A DNA stretch of 34,865 bases from Alphaproteobacteria bacterium. Lineage in GTDB: Bacteria > Pseudomonadota > Alphaproteobacteria > Bin95. Location: positions 1 through 34,865 of the forward strand of contig JAJEIH010000005.1 in assembly GCA_022827685.1 (NCBI GenBank), in the 5' to 3' direction. Below, piece after piece: positions 2,802 through 22,447 of the stretch (the stretch's first letter is position 1; each line of letters begins with the position of its first letter). The translations under genes were made by a program, and so were the position numbers. Below the pieces are notes generated by a model. That model was not told where the DNA came from. It searched no databases and was given only the letters and a program-made list of their open reading frames with translations.

Positions 2802-3885
2802 GGGTTCATCCTGCCTTGCGGGGCCGGCGCGCGTCAAGGCGCTGCCGGGTTTCCGGTGGGGCGCCGCGCTGCTGGTCTGTGCGGCTCTGGCGGTGTCGGC
2901 TGTGGCGCTTGCGCCTTCCCGGGGGCAGGCCCAGGGCGCGGAGGAGGGTCGGCCTCCGGCCGTCCAGGTCCGGCCTCCGGATTTCGGTACGGGGGCCGCG
3001 GCGACGGGCCGGGAGGGAACGAGGCCTGTTCTTCGTCCCGGCCAGAGTCCGCCGCCGGCCTCGCAGGCCCTGCCGGGCGCGGAAGACGAGACGCAGAAGG
3101 TTTCGGGGACGCCGGCAACGGAGCAAGGGGCCGCGCCGTCCGTTGCCGTCGAGCCGGGGCGGCAGAGCCCTCCTCCCCCTGCCGCCCCGGCCACCGAACC
3201 GGAAGAGCCCGTGGTGATCGCCTATGAGCCGGCGGTGCTTCGCGTGTTCGAGTGTCCGCGCGAGGCGATCGCGCGGATGATCGCGAGCGCTGTTGCCGAG
3301 GGCCAGTTCAGCGAGGCGCTGGAGCTTGAGCGCGAGGTGCTGGTGCTGTGCCGTGACCGGCAGGCGATCCTGAAGGAGCTGGTGCAGTCGGAGCTGGACC
3401 TGGCGGAGGCCTTGCAGAAGTCCGCGACGGCGCGCGCAAGAGAAGCGCTGGCGCTGGAGACGGCGCGGCGCGAGGCGGCTGCCCGGATCGAGGCGGCCAG
3501 GTCGGCGATTCTGGAGTCGGCCAGGGAAGAGATGTCCCGCGCGGCGGACGCCCGGGTCGAAGCGGCGAAGGCCGAGGCCGCGCGGGAGGCGGAGGCGAGG
3601 ATCGCGGAGGTCAGGGCGGAGGCGGCCCGGGCGGAGGCGGCGCCGGCAGCGGCGCCTGCGCAATCGGGTGACGAAGCGCCCGAATACGGATGGTTTGCGG
3701 TGATGGGCTCCGGAGGCGATCTCCGGGCGGCGGTCACCGACGGGGACATGGTCTGGCGGGTGCGGGCCGGCGAGAGCCTGCCGGGCGGGGTGACGGTGGT
3801 GGCGGTCGAGGCGCGGCCCCCTGGCGTCCGGGTCCGGGGGTGGACGTCGGACCGTCTCCCTTACCGGCCGGGGGTGGGCCGGTGA
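2800..3885 (+). CDS. pilP: PilP-like type IVb pilus biogenesis protein with long coiled coil
   Basis: A 361-residue exported protein. After ATG 2800 there is a basic stretch and a hydrophobic segment (LLVCAALAVSAVAL) ending near SRGQAQG, a likely signal peptide or anchor. A Pro-rich linker follows, then a long Ala/Glu/Arg coiled coil (about residues 193-285). The C-terminal domain (about 295-350) has the pattern GSGGDLRAAVTDGD...VRAGESLPGGVTV, which matches the PilP family of IncI-type thin pili, where PilP is a periplasmic assembly protein. The usual family length is about 150 residues, so the coiled coil is an expansion. The reading frame runs on upstream to 2401, but that part is antisense to the minus-strand gene. 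The start has no good ribosome-binding site and is uncertain. It lies upstream of pilQ as expected for a pil operon. Confidence 0.68.
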   Translation: MGSSCLAGPARVKALPGFRWGAALLVCAALAVSAVALAPSRGQAQGAEEGRPPAVQVRPPDFGTGAAATGREGTRPVLRPGQSPPPASQALPGAEDETQKVSGTPATEQGAAPSVAVEPGRQSPPPPAAPATEPEEPVVIAYEPAVLRVFECPREAIARMIASAVAEGQFSEALELEREVLVLCRDRQAILKELVQSELDLAEALQKSATARAREALALETARREAAARIEAARSAILESAREEMSRAADARVEAAKAEAAREAEARIAEVRAEAARAEAAPAAAPAQSGDEAPEYGWFAVMGSGGDLRAAVTDGDMVWRVRAGESLPGGVTVVAVEARPPGVRVRGWTSDRLPYRPGVGR

Positions 3886-3947
3886 CGGTGCGGCGAGGAT
3901 CGTTCTGGGCCCGGTTGAAGGAAGCCGGCGCGCGGGCGAACGGACTG

Positions 3948-4175
3948 TCAGGGGCCGACGCAGTCCAGATAGGCATATGTAGCCCGGATGACGCCGATGA
4001 TGGAAAGCACCGTGCCAATGCCGGCAAGGATGCTCCAGACGACTGGCGGGCGGGCCAGGTGGAGGGCGGCGGCCAGGACAACGGCGGAGGCGATGAGTTG
4101 TGCGGCACTGGCCGCAAGGAGGAATTCGAGCAGGGCGATGTAGAAGGCTTGGGTGCAGCTGATGAGTGGTGGCAG
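3948..4175 (-). CDS. Small two-helix membrane protein, start codon unresolved
   Basis: On the minus strand a stop at 3948-3950 closes a frame coding about 70 residues with two convincing membrane helices, FYIALLEFLLAASAAQLIAS and VVWSILAGIGTVLSIIGVI, ending RATYAYLDCVGP. Third codon positions are more G/C-rich than in the + frame. The + frame over the same bases is an unnatural Gly/Asp-rich sequence, so the minus strand is the likelier coding strand. No ATG, GTG or TTG starts this frame. CTG (4173-4175) or ATT (4182-4184) would be needed, or a frameshift separates it from the ATG on this strand at 4213. It may therefore be a degraded gene or use a rare start. It diverges from the + membrane gene beginning near 4149 and resembles in layout the minus-strand gene at 10509-10715. 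Function unknown. Confidence 0.45.
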   Translation of the reverse strand: MPPLISCTQAFYIALLEFLLAASAAQLIASAVVLAAALHLARPPVVWSILAGIGTVLSIIGVIRATYAYLDCVGP

Positions 4176-4634
4176 ATCTGGAATTGCTCGGGTTCCCTGG
4201 CGGCGACGACATTCGCGTTGTTTGTACTGGTGGTGTCGGAGTTGTTGAACCCGTTGGGGCCGGACGTGAAACGCGTTGCGTCGGCAGCGGCAGTCTACGG
4301 GTTCTGGTTCGCGAGCGCATTTCTGGCGATGTGCGTGCTCTGCCGACAGGGGCAGGGATCATTCGGTTTTGCGGTGTCGGGCGAATTTCGTTTCGGGGCC
4401 GCGGTGGTGGCGATGGCGCTTCTGTGGTCGGAAGCGCCGGTCGCCATGAGTCTGGCGGGCTGGGTCGCGGTGGCGGCGGTGGCCATGGGCGGTATCGCGG
4501 ACGGCGCATGGCTGGCGGTCGTGTCGTTGCGTCGCGAGGTGCCTCCCTGGCGCGCCCTGGCAATCGTGTTTCGCGAGGAGAAGCAGGCCCGCAGGGAGCT
4601 CTGGCGCCGTCTGTATTGGGGTAGCTCGCGGTGA
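4149..4634 (+). CDS. Membrane protein of unknown function in the pilus operon
   Basis: The product has about four hydrophobic segments (TTFALFVLVVSELL, VYGFWFASAFLAMCVLC, FGAAVVAMALLWSEAPVAM, WVAVAAVAMGGIADGAWLAVV) and a basic C-terminal tail (FREEKQARRELWRRLYW). It ends inside the start of pilQ (GTGA overlap), so translation is probably coupled to that gene. The start is uncertain. TTG 4149 is the last plausible start before the first helix. GTG 3882, which overlaps the pilP stop, would add 89 residues that look like antisense shadow of the minus-strand gene. Its organisation, four helices followed by a basic tail and paired head-to-head with a minus-strand small membrane gene, is like that of the gene at 10719-11168. 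No family recognised. Confidence 0.62.
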   Translation: MGAADEWWQIWNCSGSLAATTFALFVLVVSELLNPLGPDVKRVASAAAVYGFWFASAFLAMCVLCRQGQGSFGFAVSGEFRFGAAVVAMALLWSEAPVAMSLAGWVAVAAVAMGGIADGAWLAVVSLRREVPPWRALAIVFREEKQARRELWRRLYWGSSR

Positions 4635-7865: not shown

Positions 7866-9071
7866 GTGCCGGGCCGGCCGACATCCCTGTTGCGGCGCCT
7901 GCGGCGCGGCTGCCGGCGCGGGGCCGGGGGCGAAGCCGGCGTGGTGCTGGTCGTGGCGATGGCGCTGGTCGCGATGCTGGGCTGGTATCGCGAGCAGGAT
8001 GCGCTCCGGCTCGCGGAGATGGACCGCGAACGCGGCCGCGTCTGGGGCATGACCTGCACGGCCCTGCACCGGGCGGTCCAGTCGGGCCTGGTGACGACGG
8101 CCCGCACGGTGACGCCGGCGGAGCTTCGCGGATGGTCCCTCCTCCCGGCCGGCTTCGGCACGGTCGAGCGCGCCGGCGGCGCGGTCGCGACGCCGGGATA
8201 CGGGACGGTGCTTGCCGGCGGGGTGCCGATGGCCGTGTGCAGCCTCTCCGGTCCGGAGCTTGCCTTCAGGGCGCCCTCGCTCCGGGCCGGGGCGGTGATG
8301 GGCGGGCTTGACCTGGTCGGGGTCGTCGGAGGCGACGTGACCGCCATGCACGACCGTCTGGGCGCCGTCCAGGGCGTTCTCGGGACGCTCGCTTCGGGAT
8401 CGATGTTCGCGACGGCGGATTTCGGGATCGGTCACGAGGCGGACCGGCTTCATCGCCGCCCGGTGGGCGGGCGGCCGGAACTGGCGCGGATGGAGACGGA
8501 TTTCGTGTTCGGCCCGAACACGGATATCGGCCAGGCGCTGCTGCCGGCCGGGGAGATCGTGGACGGGGTGGCGGTGGTTCCGGGCGAGGATTGCCGCGAC
8601 CCGCTGCTGCGGGCGGAGCGGCGCTGTTTCGACGTGCTCGGCGCGGGAAGCGTGGAGGGCGTGAACGCCGGCGCGAACGGGTCGAGCCGGTTCCGAGGGG
8701 CGACGGCGGAGATCGGGGGGAACGTGTCGGTCGGCTTTCCGGGCCAGCCGGGCCAGTTGTCCTTCGTCGATGACAATCCGGCTTCGGGGTTCAGCGCGGA
8801 CGGAGGGTTCCGGTTCGGGAACGGGACGTCCGGGCAGTCGTTCAACGTGCCGCAGCTGCTGAGTGTCGGGGGCTCGATGTCCTCGCGCGGGGCCGTCGAT
8901 GCCGGGAGCGTGGAGATCGTCGGACGGCTGGATGTCGGCGGGCAGGCGACGGCGCGCGGACAGGCGGCGGGACAGAGGCTTTCGGTCGCCGGCGACCTCG
9001 GCGCGAACTCGGGTTCCTTCAGCGGGATCGTGACGACGGGCAGCTGCAACGGCTGCGAACCGGCGCTTTAG
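7866..9071 (+). CDS. PilV-like minor pilin/adhesin 1
   Basis: A 401-residue protein with a basic, Gly-rich leader (RRLRRGCRRGAGGEAG) followed by one hydrophobic helix (VVLVVAMALVAMLGW), which is prepilin-like. The remainder is a long exported region rich in Gly, Val, Ser and Asp. Beta-repeat-like stretches lie near its end (SVEIVGRLDVGGQATARGQ, RLSVAGDLGANSG), and it finishes with GSCNGCEPAL. This is the layout of PilV, the thin-pilus tip adhesin of IncI plasmids, whose C-terminal part decides recipient specificity. It starts at GTG 7866, four bases after the pilS stop codon. A second such gene follows at once, ending in the related motif GSCSGC. No recombinase gene or obvious shufflon repeat is seen between them. 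Confidence 0.78.
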   Translation: MPGRPTSLLRRLRRGCRRGAGGEAGVVLVVAMALVAMLGWYREQDALRLAEMDRERGRVWGMTCTALHRAVQSGLVTTARTVTPAELRGWSLLPAGFGTVERAGGAVATPGYGTVLAGGVPMAVCSLSGPELAFRAPSLRAGAVMGGLDLVGVVGGDVTAMHDRLGAVQGVLGTLASGSMFATADFGIGHEADRLHRRPVGGRPELARMETDFVFGPNTDIGQALLPAGEIVDGVAVVPGEDCRDPLLRAERRCFDVLGAGSVEGVNAGANGSSRFRGATAEIGGNVSVGFPGQPGQLSFVDDNPASGFSADGGFRFGNGTSGQSFNVPQLLSVGGSMSSRGAVDAGSVEIVGRLDVGGQATARGQAAGQRLSVAGDLGANSGSFSGIVTTGSCNGCEPAL

Positions 9072-9076
9072 GGGCG

Positions 9077-10150
9077 GTGGCGGTGACCGGCTTCCGCAGG
9101 CGTCTCTGGATCGCGCGCTGGAGGGGGATGAGCCCGCAAGGGGCGCAGATCGGGGTCGCGGTGATGCTCGGCTTGATGCTGGCATTGTCGATCTGGGTGC
9201 AGGAGAGGCTGAACGACCAGAGGGCGGTAGGGGCCGGCCGGAAGCTGGTGGTCCTTGCCGGGGCGGTCGAGAGCCATGTGAGGGCGAATTACGGACAGTA
9301 TGTGCCGCCCGCGCTGCCGGCGGGCGCCTCCATCCAAATCGATATCGATCTGCTGAAGACGGACGACTTCCTGCCGCTGGGGTTCGACCAGTCGGGCGAC
9401 GCGATGAAGCGGCCGCTCCAGGCATGGGCGATTTCGACGGGCGGCGGCCGGGTGAGGCTGCTGTCGATGCAGGTCCTGTCGGCGGGCGACACGCGGCACC
9501 CGGTGGAAGGGACGTATGAGGCGCGCGGCGAGCAGGCGCTGGGCGTCGTGAATGCGGCAGGCGAGCTGCAGGGTCCGACGATCCAGGAGAACCTGTCCGC
9601 GTTCCGGGCCGTGGCGGGCGGGCATCCGAGGCAGTGGGCGATGGCCGTCTACCGGCAACTGGACCGGGAGAGTGTGTGCGGGGACGCGGTCTTCAGGCGC
9701 GAGCGGACGGGATGTCCGGACTCCGCGCGCATGGAGACCGACCTGGACATGAACGGGAACGACGTCGTGGGCGTGAAGGTGCTCACGGCGGAGGAACTCC
9801 AGGTGGACCGCGTGATGCGGGCGGGCGAGTTCCGGATCGACCAGACGCTGCAGGTGGGCACGACCGTGAGCCCGGGGTCGCTGGAGGTCCTCGGCGGCGT
9901 GAGGGTGCCGGACGGGCTGGTGTTCCGGGGCGACGCGGAGTTCACGGGGACGGTCAACGCGAATGCGGTTGAGGTGGCCGGCCGGCTCGATGCGGACAGC
10001 GCGGATGTCGCGCAGGGCGTGACGGCGCAGACCATCCAGGCGCAGGGGAATCTCGGCGCGTCGGGCGCGAATTTCACGGGCTCGGTGTCGGTGACGGGCA
10101 CCGGTTCGTTCGGGTCGCTCAGCGTGGGGAGCTGCTCCGGATGCCAGTGA
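9077..10150 (+). CDS. pilV: PilV-like minor pilin/adhesin 2
   Basis: A 357-residue prepilin-like protein. The leader ends in MSPQG, almost identical to the MTPQG leader of the pilin gene, and is followed by the helix AQIGVAVMLGLMLALSIWV, so the same peptidase should process it after the Gly. The start is either GTG 9077 (a 22-residue leader) or ATG 9128, which has GGAGGGGG directly before it and would give the same five-residue leader as PilS. The exported part contains MDMN-like beta-helix/fibre text (DLDMNGNDVVGVKVLTAEEL, VDRVMRAGEFRI, GSLEVLGGVRVPDGLVFRG) typical of PilV and phage tail-like tips. It ends with GSCSGCQ, matching the end of the preceding gene. Likely role: pilus tip adhesin in mating-pair recognition. 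Confidence 0.82.
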   Translation: MAVTGFRRRLWIARWRGMSPQGAQIGVAVMLGLMLALSIWVQERLNDQRAVGAGRKLVVLAGAVESHVRANYGQYVPPALPAGASIQIDIDLLKTDDFLPLGFDQSGDAMKRPLQAWAISTGGGRVRLLSMQVLSAGDTRHPVEGTYEARGEQALGVVNAAGELQGPTIQENLSAFRAVAGGHPRQWAMAVYRQLDRESVCGDAVFRRERTGCPDSARMETDLDMNGNDVVGVKVLTAEELQVDRVMRAGEFRIDQTLQVGTTVSPGSLEVLGGVRVPDGLVFRGDAEFTGTVNANAVEVAGRLDADSADVAQGVTAQTIQAQGNLGASGANFTGSVSVTGTGSFGSLSVGSCSGCQ

Positions 10151-10458
10151 CGGGACCAATGCTGCGCGGCGCGTTGTTGGCGCTGGTCTGGACGGCGGCG
10201 CTGGGGAACGCGGCGCTGGCGGACTGGGATGCGGCGCGGAGCGAGGCCCTGGCGGTCCGGGAGGCGCTGCAGGCGGACATTTCGGCGATGAAGCGGCTTC
10301 GTGCCGCGCAGAAGGAGCTGATGGGCTGGAACCTGGAGCGGGGCCAGGTCGGATCGGCGGTCAGGACGCTGAGGCCGGAAGTCTGCGAGCAGGACGAGCT
10401 GAAGCGCTGGTGCGAGTTGTTTCCGGCGACCTTCGGCGTCCGGGAGGACGAGCTGTGA
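10141..10458 (+). CDS. Small exported protein of unknown function
   Basis: A 105-residue product starting at ATG 10141 inside the end of the previous gene (10-base overlap); ATG 10159 is a possible alternative. It has a signal peptide (MLRGALLALVWTAALGNAALA, cleavage likely before DWDAARSEA). A helical, charged mature domain of about 78 residues follows, with two cysteines (VCEQDELKRWCELF) that could form a disulfide. It is periplasmic by prediction. It lies in the pilus operon between the PilV-like adhesin and the prepilin peptidase, so a role in pilus assembly is possible but not shown. No family recognised. Confidence 0.72.
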   Translation: MPVTGPMLRGALLALVWTAALGNAALADWDAARSEALAVREALQADISAMKRLRAAQKELMGWNLERGQVGSAVRTLRPEVCEQDELKRWCELFPATFGVREDEL

Positions 10459-10508
10459 GGCGGCTGGCCCGGTGGATGTTGTCGGCTCGCGACAGGAGCG
10501 CTGCCGGT

Positions 10509-10715
10509 TCAGAAGGAGCAGGCGCTGAAGTCGAGCATCCAGACGACGACGCGCCATGCGGCCACGCAGAACAGCAGGCCTGCGATCAGCCAGGTGGAAA
10601 GCCTGTCGCCGGGGGCGGACGCAACCAGGGAAAAGAGAAAGAGACAGCCGAGCGCGACAGCGAGGTTCCCGCCGGTGGCCCGGAGGCAGCCGACCATCTC
10701 CGTGAGATCTTCCAT
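10509..10715 (-). CDS. Small two-helix membrane protein on the minus strand
   Basis: A 68-residue product (MEDLTEMVGCLRATGG start) with two membrane helices, NLAVALGCLFLFSLVAS and TWLIAGLLFCVAAWRVVVWM, and the end DFSACSF. The ATG is preceded on the minus strand by GGAGAACATTGC, a well-spaced ribosome-binding site. The + frame over these bases is a hydrophilic shadow. Its ATG faces the ATG of the + membrane gene at 10719 with three bases between (CAT-GCA-ATG), so the two are divergent with no room for a conventional promoter between their starts. The family is unknown. The size and position of such genes can suit immunity/exclusion or regulatory membrane proteins, which is speculation. Confidence 0.75.
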   Translation of the reverse strand: MEDLTEMVGCLRATGGNLAVALGCLFLFSLVASAPGDRLSTWLIAGLLFCVAAWRVVVWMLDFSACSF

Positions 10716-10718
10716 GCA

Positions 10719-11168
10719 ATGTTCTCCGTGAGAGTGAGCGCGCTGGCCCTGGGGACGTTCTTCGCCGCGCTTGAAGGTATCCCTGTCTCCGGGGGGATTG
10801 CCTGGGCGGCGGCAGCCATTGTCCTGTATCCGGCGACGGTGGCGCTCTTCTACACGGTTTACAGGTGGAGCGGTCATCGCCTCGGCACGCCGCCGCTGCT
10901 CGGCAATGCCGGGCTCGGACTGGTCGTCGTGGCATGGCTGTTTCTCCTCTTCTCCAGCGATCCGGCGGTGCAGAGGCTGGCGCTCTTCACGGCTGCGGCC
11001 GCGGCGTTCTCTTGCGGAGCGTCGCTGGGCGGACATCTGGCCGTGATTGCGACGGGCCGGCGAACGGGGTTCCTGGACGCGCTTCGCACGATGCCTCGCC
11101 TGGGTAGGGAGGCGAAACGGCATTCCTGGTTGGCCGCGGTGAGTGCGGCAAGGGGCGCAGCGCCATGA
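10719..11168 (+). CDS. Membrane protein of unknown function in the pilus operon
   Basis: A 149-residue product with about four hydrophobic segments (ALALGTFFAALEGIPVSGGI, AWAAAAIVLYPATVALFYTV, LGLVVVAWLFLLFSS, LALFTAAAAAFSCGASLGG) and a basic C-terminal tail (TMPRLGREAKRHSWL). Starts at ATG 10719; GTG 10728 and GTG 10734 are alternatives and no start has a strong ribosome-binding site. Its stop overlaps the ATG of the prepilin peptidase gene (ATGA). Layout and tail recall the + gene at 4149-4634, and both face a minus-strand two-helix gene. The two may be distant paralogues, but I cannot show sequence identity with certainty. Confidence 0.72.
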   Translation: MFSVRVSALALGTFFAALEGIPVSGGIAWAAAAIVLYPATVALFYTVYRWSGHRLGTPPLLGNAGLGLVVVAWLFLLFSSDPAVQRLALFTAAAAAFSCGASLGGHLAVIATGRRTGFLDALRTMPRLGREAKRHSWLAAVSAARGAAP

Positions 11169-11809
11169 TTTCGGCGCAATCCCGCAAGGTTGGCCGTCCT
11201 GGCCGGGAGGCTCTGACGCGGTTTGTCCGCGGACCGGGCAGGGGCGCGCCGGCGTTTCTGCTCGCCGCGGCGCTGGCGGGGTTTGCCGCGATGGGACTCG
11301 GCGTGGATGCGCAGCGGGCGCTCGACGGCGTGGTCATTGCCTGGGTGATGGGTTCGCTCGCGCTGCTCGGGTGGTTCGACGGGACGGCATACCGTATCGA
11401 TCCGTGGTGGCTTAGCGCGCTGGCCGGCGCTGCGGCGGTCTGGCAGGCGCAGGCGGCAGGACCGGAGCCGGTCGAAGGACTGTTGCGGGGCCTCGCCGGG
11501 GCCGGCGTCGGTTTCGCGCTCGGGGCCCTTCCGATCGGGGTAGCGGAAGCGCTCGGGCGGCGCTGGCCGTTCTCTCCGGGAGACGCGCTGCTGTTCGCCG
11601 GGCTGGGGGTTCTCGTGGGCCCGCTGGGTGTCCTCTGGACCGTTTTCCTGGGCGGTCTCGTGTCGCTGGCGCGTCACCGCTGCGTTCAACGCCGCCGCGG
11701 GCGACCCTGGACGAGAGGTCATGTGGCGCTGGGACCGGGCATGGCGGTGGCCGCCGCGTCCGTCTTCGTGGCGTCGAACTACAGCGTTGTTGCCGGAGCG
11801 GGGGGATGA
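11165..11809 (+). CDS. pilU: PilU-like prepilin peptidase (A24 family, peptidase domain only)
   Basis: A 214-residue polytopic membrane aspartic protease that should remove the leader peptides of the pilin and PilV-like proteins. Two aspartates sit in the expected places: D72 in GWFDGTAYRIDPWW, the first-Asp region, and D140 in SPGDALLFAGLG, corresponding to the GxGDxxL motif. A late GPGMAVAAASVFVAS helix matches the family's C-terminal 'GP' helix. There is no N-terminal methyltransferase or Cys-pair domain, as in PilU of IncI plasmids. ATG 11165 overlaps the previous stop, and the end overlaps the next ATG at 11806, so it is translationally coupled on both sides. Confidence 0.85.
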   Translation: MISAQSRKVGRPGREALTRFVRGPGRGAPAFLLAAALAGFAAMGLGVDAQRALDGVVIAWVMGSLALLGWFDGTAYRIDPWWLSALAGAAAVWQAQAAGPEPVEGLLRGLAGAGVGFALGALPIGVAEALGRRWPFSPGDALLFAGLGVLVGPLGVLWTVFLGGLVSLARHRCVQRRRGRPWTRGHVALGPGMAVAAASVFVASNYSVVAGAGG

Positions 11810-12781: not shown

Positions 12782-13324
12782 ATGACCGCCGGAATGCGGA
12801 TACCGGCGCTGTTGCCGGCCGCGCTGGCGCTTGGCCTGGCGCTGGCATGCGGGGCGCCCCGGGACGCTGGCGCACAGCAGGTCAAGGCGCCTGAGGCGCG
12901 GTCGTTCGCGATCCGGGTCGAGGAGGGGACCCATGTCGCGTTCGGCGTGGCCGAGCCGCTGCCGGGAAGCGACGGCGGGTTGCGCATCGGCTTCGCGGTC
13001 AGTTGCGAGCAGGCATCGGGCAAGCTGGAAGCGCTGATGTCCTTCGGGTCGGCTCCCCTGGACAAGCGCGTCCAGGCCGCTGCCGGGGTTCCGGGCGGCC
13101 GGGTGGAGCGTTTCGGTCCGGTCGTCCGTGGCGGCGGTCCGGCGGCGGGCTTCCACGACCCGAGGGTCACGGGCCGCGAGGACGTGCTGCGCTTCATCGA
13201 TGCGGCGTTCGCACCGGACGCGCTGGTGTCGAACGGGCACAACTCGATCTGGAACCGGGTCGGGGCGCAGGAGAACCGGGAGGCCCGCGCGGCCCTGGGC
13301 CGCTGCGCGGGAGCCGGCGAATGA
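12782..13324 (+). CDS. Exported protein of unknown function
   Basis: A 180-residue product starting at ATG 12782, with GGGGAGG upstream. The N-terminus is a signal peptide (LLPAALALGLALACGAPRDAGA); a Cys at its end (LALAC) could make it a lipoprotein, although the sequence is not an ideal lipobox. The mature part contains VRVEE-like beta text (FAIRVEEGTHVAFGVAEPL), one Cys near the middle and one near the end (GRCAGAGE). The stop overlaps the start of the TcpQ-like gene (ATGA). Periplasmic or outer-membrane location is inferred. No family recognised; context suggests it belongs to the outer-membrane part of the transfer apparatus. Confidence 0.72.
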   Translation: MTAGMRIPALLPAALALGLALACGAPRDAGAQQVKAPEARSFAIRVEEGTHVAFGVAEPLPGSDGGLRIGFAVSCEQASGKLEALMSFGSAPLDKRVQAAAGVPGGRVERFGPVVRGGGPAAGFHDPRVTGREDVLRFIDAAFAPDALVSNGHNSIWNRVGAQENREARAALGRCAGAGE

Positions 13325-14409
13325 CGCGGCGCGGGGAAGAGATGCGGATGCGGTCCACAAGCCGAACGGCGCGCCGGCGGCGGGTCGACCGCACGGGCCG
13401 GGAGCTCCTGCTGCTGACGGGGTTCGTCATGGCGGTGTCGGCGGCGGCGCTGACGCTCGCGGATGCAACGGAAACGCCGCCCGTGCAGCCTCTGCCGGCG
13501 ACGGTGAGCGTGAAGGCGCCGTCGCGGGACCTGCCGGCGGACCTGGCCGGCCGGGAGGTCCGGGTGGAGGAGCTGAACCCTCTTTCCTTCCGGGAGCTTG
13601 TCGGCCGAGTGGCGGCGTTGATGGGCGTCGAGGCCGTGCTCGAGGAGCGGCCGGGCCGCGTCGCGGGCGAGCGTGTCGTCCACGACGCGCCGGTGCCGTT
13701 CGGCCTTGTCATGACCGGGAGGGCGCCGGCGGTGCTGGACGAGCTGGCGCGGCTTTCCGGTTACGACTGGTCCTGGGCGGACGGACGGCTGGTGTTCTTC
13801 CGCCATGCGGACAGCGAGCAGCGCGAGGCCATGCGGCTGCCGTCGGGCGTCGCGGTCGATCTGCTGGCCGCGCTTGCCGAGAGCGGGTCGTCGGCGGCGC
13901 CCGCGGATGCAACCCGGGCGGAGGGCACCGCGGAGCCCGGTCCGCAGTCCGGAGCGGCGGCGACAGAAGACGGGGAGGCGGCTCATGCGAAAGTGGATCC
14001 GGCGGGGCGTCTGGCGCCTGCGGTTCCGGGGCGAGTGGAAGCGGGACCCGGAAGGCGTGTGGATGCCGGAGCTCAGGCCGCGGTGGAAGGACAAGGCGAG
14101 GCGCCGGCGGCGGAACAGGTCGCGCCCGGTCCCGCAGGCTGGGAAGTAGATCCCGATCGTCACGAGACCGTCGAGGGCGTCCTTCGGGCCTGGGCGGAGC
14201 GGGCGGGCTGGAACCTGGCCTGGGAGACGGACCGGCAGTTCCGCGTCGGCGCGGCGGCCGCGTTCGAGGGCGGCGGGAACGGACAGGAAGGTTTCCTGAA
14301 GGCGGCCGACGCGCTGCTGGCGATTTCGCCGATGCGCCGGATGCTGACGGCCACGGCCTATCCGAACCGCTGGCTGGTGGTACGGGACGTCGGGAGCGCG
14401 GCGCAATGA
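13321..14409 (+). CDS. TcpQ-like outer-membrane complex protein with N-terminal secretin-type domain
   Basis: A 362-residue protein with a basic N-terminus and a membrane/signal helix (LLLLTGFVMAVSAAALTLA). Residues of about 80-160 resemble a secretin N0/STN domain (LSFRELVGRVAALMGVEAVL ... LARLSGYDWSWADGRLVF). After an Ala/Gly/Glu linker, residues 277-358 match the TcpQ C-terminal domain (VEGVLRAWAERAGWNLAWE ... FLKAADALLAISPMRRMLTA ... NRWLVVRD). TcpQ/PilL-type proteins help assemble or target the outer-membrane secretin of type IVb pili. The ATG overlaps the previous stop; ATG 13342, with GGGGAAGAG before it, is an alternative start. It is followed by dotD, so it could serve the pilus, the secretion channel or both. 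Confidence 0.8.
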   Translation: MTRRGEEMRMRSTSRTARRRRVDRTGRELLLLTGFVMAVSAAALTLADATETPPVQPLPATVSVKAPSRDLPADLAGREVRVEELNPLSFRELVGRVAALMGVEAVLEERPGRVAGERVVHDAPVPFGLVMTGRAPAVLDELARLSGYDWSWADGRLVFFRHADSEQREAMRLPSGVAVDLLAALAESGSSAAPADATRAEGTAEPGPQSGAAATEDGEAAHAKVDPAGRLAPAVPGRVEAGPGRRVDAGAQAAVEGQGEAPAAEQVAPGPAGWEVDPDRHETVEGVLRAWAERAGWNLAWETDRQFRVGAAAAFEGGGNGQEGFLKAADALLAISPMRRMLTATAYPNRWLVVRDVGSAAQ

Positions 14410-14951
14410 GCGCGGGCGCGGCCATCGGCGGGATGGTCGTCGGCGCGCTGGCGCTTGCCGGCTGCCAGTCGCTCGATCTCGACTGGATGAAGGAGCGGCC
14501 CGCGGAGAAGGAGGCCGCGGTCGCGGGCGACCCTGCCGAGATGCGGAGGGCCGAGGCGATGGTCCGCGCCCAGGAGGCGCGGACGAAGCTGGCGGAGATC
14601 CGCTCGGCCGGGGTGGCTCCGAAGGTGGATATCCCGCGCCTGGTGACGCCGGAGCTGCAGAAGCGGGTGACGCTGGACTGGCTGGGCCCGCTGGAGAGCG
14701 CGGCGCAGCGCCTGGCCGACGAGATCGGCTACGACTTCGTGGTCGCCGGCCCGCGCCCGCCGGCGCCGGTGATGGTCGAGATAGACGTCGAGGACGAGCC
14801 TGTCATCTTCGTGCTCCGCGATATCGGGCTCCAGGCCGAGGGGCGGGCGTTTCTCACGACCGATGCCGGACGCATGGCGGTGCGGCTCGACTGGATCGGG
14901 CCGAAGGCCGGGAACGAGGGTACCGCGCCGTCCGGGGAGGCCGGGTCGTGA
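14406..14951 (+). CDS. dotD: DotD/TraH lipoprotein of the type IVB outer-membrane complex
   Basis: A 181-residue lipoprotein (lipobox ALAGC). After a helical linker (EMRRAEAMVRAQEARTKLAE) the C-terminal domain shows the DotD signature. It has RLVTPELQKRVTLDWLGPLE, the segment AQRLADEIGYDFVVAGPRPP, and then PVMVEIDVEDEPVIFVLRDI with GLQAEGRA. In Legionella DotD has a secretin-like N0 fold and, with DotC, places DotH in the outer membrane. Length agrees with DotD/TraH. The ATG overlaps the previous stop, and the next gene overlaps its end. The gene order dotD then dotC then dotB is that of Dot/Icm and IncI systems. Confidence 0.93.
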   Translation: MSAGAAIGGMVVGALALAGCQSLDLDWMKERPAEKEAAVAGDPAEMRRAEAMVRAQEARTKLAEIRSAGVAPKVDIPRLVTPELQKRVTLDWLGPLESAAQRLADEIGYDFVVAGPRPPAPVMVEIDVEDEPVIFVLRDIGLQAEGRAFLTTDAGRMAVRLDWIGPKAGNEGTAPSGEAGS

Positions 14952-22135: not shown

Positions 22136-22447
22136 ATGTCCGGGATCGGCAGGGAAGGCCTTGCGCGCAAGGAGCTTGGGCGCGCGGTGGCAAGGGAGAC
22201 GGGATTGACCGAGAAGGCGGCCGCCCGTGCGCTGGACACTGTCATCGACAGGATCCGGGCGCGGCTTGCGGCCGGCGAGCGGGTGATGCTGCGCGGCTTC
22301 GGGACCTTCGTCGCGGCGGAACGCGCCGAGCGGCGGTATTTCGACATGCACGCGCGCGAATGGAAGGTGTCGCCCCCGCAGCGGGTCGTGCGCTTCATCC
22401 CTTCGGCGAAGCTGAAGCGCGCGGTCAACGCCGAAGGGCGCGACTGA
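22136..22447 (+). CDS. HU/IHF-family DNA-bending protein
   Basis: A 103-residue protein starting one base after the icmK stop, with ACAGGGAGAAC as its ribosome-binding site. The N-terminal part has the HU/IHF helices (LARKELGRAVARETGLTEKA, LDTVIDRIRARLAAGERVML) and the family motif RGFGTF (53-58). The C-terminal part ends VVRFIPSAKLKRAVN, matching 'v.F.pg..Lk..vn'. Between them the DNA-binding arm (about 60-82) reads AERAERRYFDMHAREWKVSP. The conserved RNPxTG tip with its intercalating proline is missing. It may bind an element-specific DNA site or regulate the operon. A gene of this family between icmK and icmE is unexpected. Confidence 0.88.
   Translation: MSGIGREGLARKELGRAVARETGLTEKAAARALDTVIDRIRARLAAGERVMLRGFGTFVAAERAERRYFDMHAREWKVSPPQRVVRFIPSAKLKRAVNAEGRD

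Follow-up and report, generated by a model that had tools for sequence, protein, structure and literature searches.

A candidate antisense gene nested within a membrane-protein gene of a type IVB conjugation operon

A small membrane protein read from the strand opposite a transfer operon raises two questions, namely whether its reading frame is a gene at all and, if so, whether that gene stands beside the operon's own membrane gene or within it. Here, we examined this in the window (the whole 34,865-nucleotide stretch of alphaproteobacterial DNA that was analysed; GC content 71.5%), in which an earlier note had described two membrane genes lying head to head at positions 10509-11168. The thin-pilus genes of the window encode, judged by family matches, a T2SSE ATPase, a bundlin-like pilin, two PilV-like Shufflon_N proteins and a Peptidase_A24-like protein, and are followed by type IVB transfer genes for DotD, a TraI-like protein, a T2SSE ATPase, DotI, DotH, a TrbI-like protein and the coupling protein; the bundlin, Shufflon_N, A24 and TrbI matches were below curated Pfam cut-offs. 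The DotD, TraI-like, T2SSE, DotI, DotH and coupling-protein domains together with the pil genes identified the carrier as a type IVB conjugation element. The labels PilN, PilO, PilP, PilQ and PilR used below are presumptive, being given by position after R64.

Two reading frames in one codon register

The minus-strand ORF of the locus, here called module 2, occupies 10509..10715 (68 aa, two predicted membrane helices). It ends with a TGA stop that reads TCA on the plus strand (10509-10511) and opens with an ATG at 10713-10715, with GGAG eight bases 5' of that ATG. Of all ATG starts on the minus strand of the window, 101 would give proteins of 50-120 aa; two of these led to products with at least two predicted membrane segments (2/101), and both belong to this ORF. 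By the rarity of its membrane segments and by its codon usage (see below), the ORF exceeds chance, and its 68 codons probably constitute a gene. The earlier description of a minus-strand ORF with two hydrophobic segments, a good ribosome-binding site and a start close to a plus-strand ATG at 10719 (both starts lie within CATGCAATG, 10713-10721) was confirmed in each of these respects.

On the plus strand, a 237-aa reading frame (10455..11168) was open from a GTG at 10455 and spanned the minus ORF, whose codons share its register. The GTG overlaps the stop codon of the upstream 105-aa gene (10141..10458) as GTGA, and the end of the frame overlaps, as ATGA, the start of a 214-aa gene (11165..11809) with weak similarity to Peptidase_A24 (prepilin peptidase); both are conserved neighbours of this site. 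Because the register is shared and the plus frame is open from 10455 to 11168, the minus ORF lies inside the plus frame and not beside it. The plus gene can be divided into a short, basic leader of 18 codons (10455..10508) ahead of the minus stop, a linker (10509-10715) overlapped antisense by the minus ORF, and a membrane domain (10716-11165) 3' of the linker. The internal ATG (10719..10721), which had previously been taken as the plus start, was present in some copies only and may serve as an internal re-start.

Divergent copies of an optional cassette

Six divergent copies of the nested arrangement were found. The window contains two of them, another contig of its genome (G000:C84) carries a third, and the remaining three belong to a congener (G001), where two lie in tandem on C117 and one on C132. 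The tandem copies were read on L017, a contig of the alphaproteobacterial MAG CAR1_bin_3 that was reached via its PilV-like protein and that the evidence suggests is the same as C117. Copies A (L017 7348-8046) and B (L017 8270-8974) occupy the site of module 2. A shortened copy (L017 977-1402) occupies that of module 1; it has neither the minus ORF nor the first membrane helices and was excluded from the six-copy overlap tests. Module 1 lies between the PilP-like and PilQ-like genes of the window and comprises a 250-aa plus gene (3882..4634, with a GTGA start and the same leader-overlap-membrane layout) and a nested 78-aa minus frame (3948..4184) that starts with ATT where the other copies have ATG. 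The claim that module 1 repeats the layout of module 2 thus stands for the plus gene at 3882-4634 and its nesting, with the qualification that the minus frame there is possibly decayed or uses a non-canonical start. Identity of the minus proteins to the window copy was just 12-25%. The earlier note had named loss of the minus frame in related loci as grounds for abandoning the minus gene; the frame was kept, and the proposal of a small membrane protein encoded opposite the transfer operon is well supported by comparison of the copies.

These copies also bear on where the plus gene begins. Its start overlapped a TGA in seven of seven copies, namely the six and the shortened L017 copy. At the head-to-head point, C84 had no ATG, GTG or TTG nearby, and in copy B and window module 1 the start codons available there fell only inside the first membrane helix. 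Leader and membrane domain shared one frame in five of the six copies, with C132 as the exception, so that a single plus frame fully enclosed the opposite-strand ORF in those five; in the shortened L017 copy the leader was fused in frame to the last helices. From these comparisons the plus gene most likely starts at GTG 10455, not at 10719. We rejected the head-to-head reading because the coupled starts were kept in 7/7 copies and C84 lacked a start codon at the point; of the original observation, the minus ORF and both ATGs stand, the plus start at 10719 does not, and the divergent layout is most likely wrong, with the minus gene nested in the plus gene instead. In C132 (L036, reverse complement of 3311-3330), the plus frame had a one-base shift where five Gs lie in a row next to the minus start, which may be a true frameshift, a slippage site or an assembly error; the minus ORF was still open despite this shift.

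In the related elements of three other genomes (G002, G003 and G005), the 105-aa gene adjoined the A24-like gene with no space for a module, as judged from match coordinates (3/3). The cassette is therefore optional, given its absence at the same junction in all three related elements examined. Where present, it was found at three kinds of junction among the pil genes, namely after the PilP-like gene, after the 105-aa gene, and at the C132 site, where it follows a gene taken as PilO by position, behind one that is PilN-like in appearance only. In a gapped nucleotide alignment of the tandem copies A and B, neighbouring pieces were 91% and 84% identical and the leaders 87%, as against 70% for the overlap and 75% for the membrane domain, and on this sequence evidence the cassette can duplicate in tandem and diverge. 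An interior that differs more than the flanks would be expected if the cassette were undergoing change or exchange, or alternatively if its interior were simply under weaker constraint. Between A and B (L017:8041-8270) lies a hybrid ORF, in which the start of an A24-like gene is joined to the end of a 105-aa gene, left by the tandem duplication of the cassette. When 385 genomes from the class were searched with a profile of the membrane domain, two matched, namely that of the window and one of the same genus. The single proteins gave weak matches in 95 genomes, of which those in G001 were taken further. Relatives of the minus gene outside the modules were not found in 14 genomes of the family.

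Coding signals on the two strands of the overlap

In all six copies the leader, 13-22 codons long, was followed directly by a TCA, the first in-register antisense stop of the plus gene. Such stops (TCA, TTA or CTA on the plus strand) occurred twice in 7092 codons of 19 window genes and five times in the 1265 other codons of the modules, and TCA accounted for 1 of 344 serine codons in the window genes. At the module density, the chance of an antisense stop within the first 23 codons was 0.087 per copy, a value that is indicative only because the statistic was framed after the pattern had been noticed and because the copies, with A and B as tandem duplicates, lack independence. In the shortened L017 copy, from which the minus ORF is missing, there was no in-register antisense stop, and the matching serine codon, identified by eye, was TCC. 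The 19 reference genes were chosen by codon-position GC and family matches and leave aside several window genes, including the PilO-, PilP- and PilR-like ones; an over-long ORF for the PilR-like gene had four in-register stops in the upstream stretch that it shares with the PilQ-like gene.

At the other end of the minus frame, the ATG was present in five of the six copies (ATT in window module 1). Its complement, CAT, is not rare in these genes (47 of 116 histidine codons in window genes and 10 of 14 in the membrane parts), and we therefore did not accept the minus start alone as more than weak evidence. The ribosome-binding site was good in the window copy only and moderate or weak in the others, and a scan for a single promoter type revealed no sigma-70-like promoter in 10100-11400. 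At least two membrane segments were predicted for the minus product in 6/6 copies. Synonymous codon usage favoured the minus reading in five of the six overlaps (-0.44, -0.17, -0.36, -0.17 and -0.17 per codon, the first being module 2), and the plus reading in C132 (+0.18); for reference, 5 of 91 seventy-codon pieces of other genes fell below zero, that is, favoured the antisense strand.

Openness of either frame was rejected as proof, since it is expected by chance in such GC-rich composition; the probability that an in-register antisense frame would be open in all six copies ranged from P = 0.04 to 0.90, depending on the strand and codon usage assumed. The mode of alignment also mattered, because the overlap leaned towards plus when aligned as the plus protein and towards minus when aligned as the minus protein (12 of 15 pairs, compared with 4 of 15 in the membrane-domain control). 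When the four closest copies were aligned codon-symmetrically, conservation at plus positions 1, 2 and 3, corrected for chance, was 0.21, 0.37 and 0.18 in the overlap, compared with 0.42, 0.57 and 0.17 in the membrane domain. Near-equal conservation at positions 1 and 3 is as expected of dual coding, and a fast, weakly constrained region would look alike. In the closest pairs, alignment Z scores were higher for minus than for plus (10.2 versus 7.1 for A-B and 9.2 versus 4.2 for A-C84), and they were mixed in other pairs, and amino-acid identity of the two readings was about equal (0.27 plus, 0.25 minus) and was set aside as uninformative. Overall, signs of constraint on the minus strand were the conserved TCA stop and the codon usage, and those on the plus linker were the open frame, the coupled start and the near-equal position conservation only.

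These signals must be set against two simpler accounts of the overlap. Only the plus gene might be real, its hydrophilic linker codons giving, when read antisense in register, a never-expressed hydrophobic ORF as their mirror image. In GC-rich genes, in-register antisense frames are indeed expected to be open, the plus leader, coupled start and frame are all kept, the codon usage of C132 favours plus, and a linker that is predicted to be disordered would tolerate most hydrophilic sequences, but this account leaves unexplained why a rare TCA occurs in the same place in 6/6 copies and is absent from the copy without the minus ORF, why codon usage favours minus in 5/6, and why codon positions 1 and 3 are almost equally conserved. 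Codon usage, position conservation and antisense-stop counts together lowered its likelihood, and we regard it as unlikely though still credible. Conversely, only the minus gene might be real within the overlap, with the plus strand carrying a leader peptide and a separate membrane protein that starts at the head-to-head point; a plus ATG does exist at this point in the window copy and in L017 copy A, and in C132 the leader and membrane domain are in different frames. That reading is very doubtful in light of C84, which has no plus start codon there, of copy B and window module 1, with codons only inside the first helix, of the frame shared by leader and membrane domain in 5/6 copies, and of the in-frame junction of leader and last helices at L017 977-1402. 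The sequences themselves show the layout, the coupled plus start, the conserved minus stop and the recurrence of the arrangement in six copies. This recurrence suggests that both strands are used; we hold with reasonable confidence that the locus contains a nested pair of genes.

Possible roles and related systems

Structure prediction for the window minus product, made from four sequences, gave two helices (residues 2-32 and 38-67; mean pLDDT 78), which would form a hairpin in the membrane. The model of the plus product (mean pLDDT 53) consisted of a leader helix and helices from residue 76 to 232, with residues 8-90 nearly all below pLDDT 50, and we accordingly describe it as a predicted leader helix, disordered linker and membrane helices. 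Foldseek returned no match to the hairpin at E ≤ 0.001; one sequence search of solved structures gave none and another gave five weak matches to one enzyme (E ≥ 0.055), taken as chance. Neither protein matched a family model in Pfam, NCBIfam, PHROGs or PADLOC, apart from matches far below cut-off, among them one weak PHROG of unknown kind (E 0.032). The same four collections gave no match to a recognised exclusion family or to a toxin-antitoxin or membrane-toxin family; the pair was therefore not filed as a member of an exclusion system. DNA and protein searches of plasmids gave no match, nor did viral contigs.

The nested pair of genes could work as follows. The plus gene would be translated from its start, coupled to the upstream gene, to give an inner-membrane domain preceded by a short basic leader and a disordered linker, and the opposite strand of the linker would, in the same register, carry a small gene for a two-helix inner-membrane hairpin, with both products being made. 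As transcription of the transfer operon opposes the minus gene, the small protein would mainly be made with transfer off. Since the minus gene is in register and leaves few plus stops, ribosomes on the operon mRNA would pass without polarity on downstream genes. The pair may then confer self-specific immunity or exclusion towards the pilus or the transfer machine. An optional, duplicated and diverged cassette fits immunity, entry exclusion or antisense control and singles out none of them; an exclusion or immunity role is a tentative and somewhat doubtful suggestion. The explanation as a whole, that of an optional nested antisense cassette among the thin-pilus genes of a type IVB (I-type) conjugation operon, is in our judgement evenly balanced. 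The proposal becomes speculative and rather unlikely if extended to a mobile family of such cassettes in type IVB pilus operons. In such a family, two membrane proteins would be read from the same codons in fixed register, the antisense protein would be produced while the operon is silent and would signal that the cell is already occupied, and duplication and divergence would yield new specificities.

Two other functions for the locus were considered. A small two-helix hydrophobic peptide encoded antisense to another mobile-element gene, in a cassette that is optional and duplicates, would also suit an addiction or toxin-antitoxin-like pair, in which the peptide harms the membrane and is restrained by plus transcription or by the plus membrane protein; yet it had no PADLOC, NCBIfam or Pfam match and, as described, a single weak PHROG hit, and its constant placement between pil genes would be unexplained, which makes such a pair quite unlikely. 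Alternatively, the functional unit may be an antisense RNA that controls the transfer operon, the minus peptide being incidental. Read from the sequence, whatever is transcribed from the minus strand would be antisense to the mRNA of the operon, but the conserved minus stop, the mostly conserved start and the codon usage point to a translated product, and we consider control by RNA of this kind highly improbable.

Whether bacteria have fully nested antisense protein genes is a matter of dispute, and many of the cases consist of expression signals in one strain. Here, the cassette occurs repeatedly in divergent form, one natural copy lacks the antisense gene, and a rare TCA codon provides a clear marker that is open to changes silent on the plus strand. 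Were an exclusion role true, this would be an exclusion system among pilus genes that is opposed by its host operon's own transcription. Nested antisense protein genes are known from Escherichia coli (PMC7457138); laoB, ano, asa and pop of strain O157:H7 are, like the minus ORF here, protein ORFs opposite and largely inside another gene. Those cases are reported from one strain with RNA-seq and ribosome profiling, whereas the present pair is known from sequence alone, in six divergent copies with one fixed register in a conjugation operon. In the consulted parts of a study of IncI1 plasmids, tra sets that are nearly identical in other respects differ markedly in excA and traY (PMC8004404), and sharp local divergence therefore has a precedent in exclusion. 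ExcA/TraY of R64 and ColIb-P9 have thin-pilus conjugation in common with the window element, although excA is grouped with the tra gene set and not inside pil, and those parts describe no nested antisense pair (PMC8004404); the likeness is one of analogy, not membership, and is drawn from descriptions and not from sequences. As far as its consulted text goes, PAPI-1 likewise has a conjugative type IVb pilus cluster with a PilV protein, as in the window, but ties exclusion to reduced CPA LPS and not to a cassette among the pil genes (PMC5297154). No antisense pair nested in this way within a conjugation or pil operon was found described in literature viewed mostly at the level of titles and the beginnings of abstracts.

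Elsewhere in the window, the two PilV/Shufflon_N-like genes (7866-9071 and 9077-10150) adjoin, as they do in L017, and may encode alternative pilus tip adhesins; in the G005 element, ~2.4 kb separates the two PilV-like matches (L028:5960-8330). The 607-aa ORF at 13128-14951 carries a C-terminal DotD domain (residues 473-589) and far exceeds the 121 positions of the DotD model, and its start may be misplaced or the ORF may be a fusion. A gene for an HU-type DNA-binding protein (22136-22447; Pfam Bac_DNA_binding, 1.3e-19) lies within the transfer operon.
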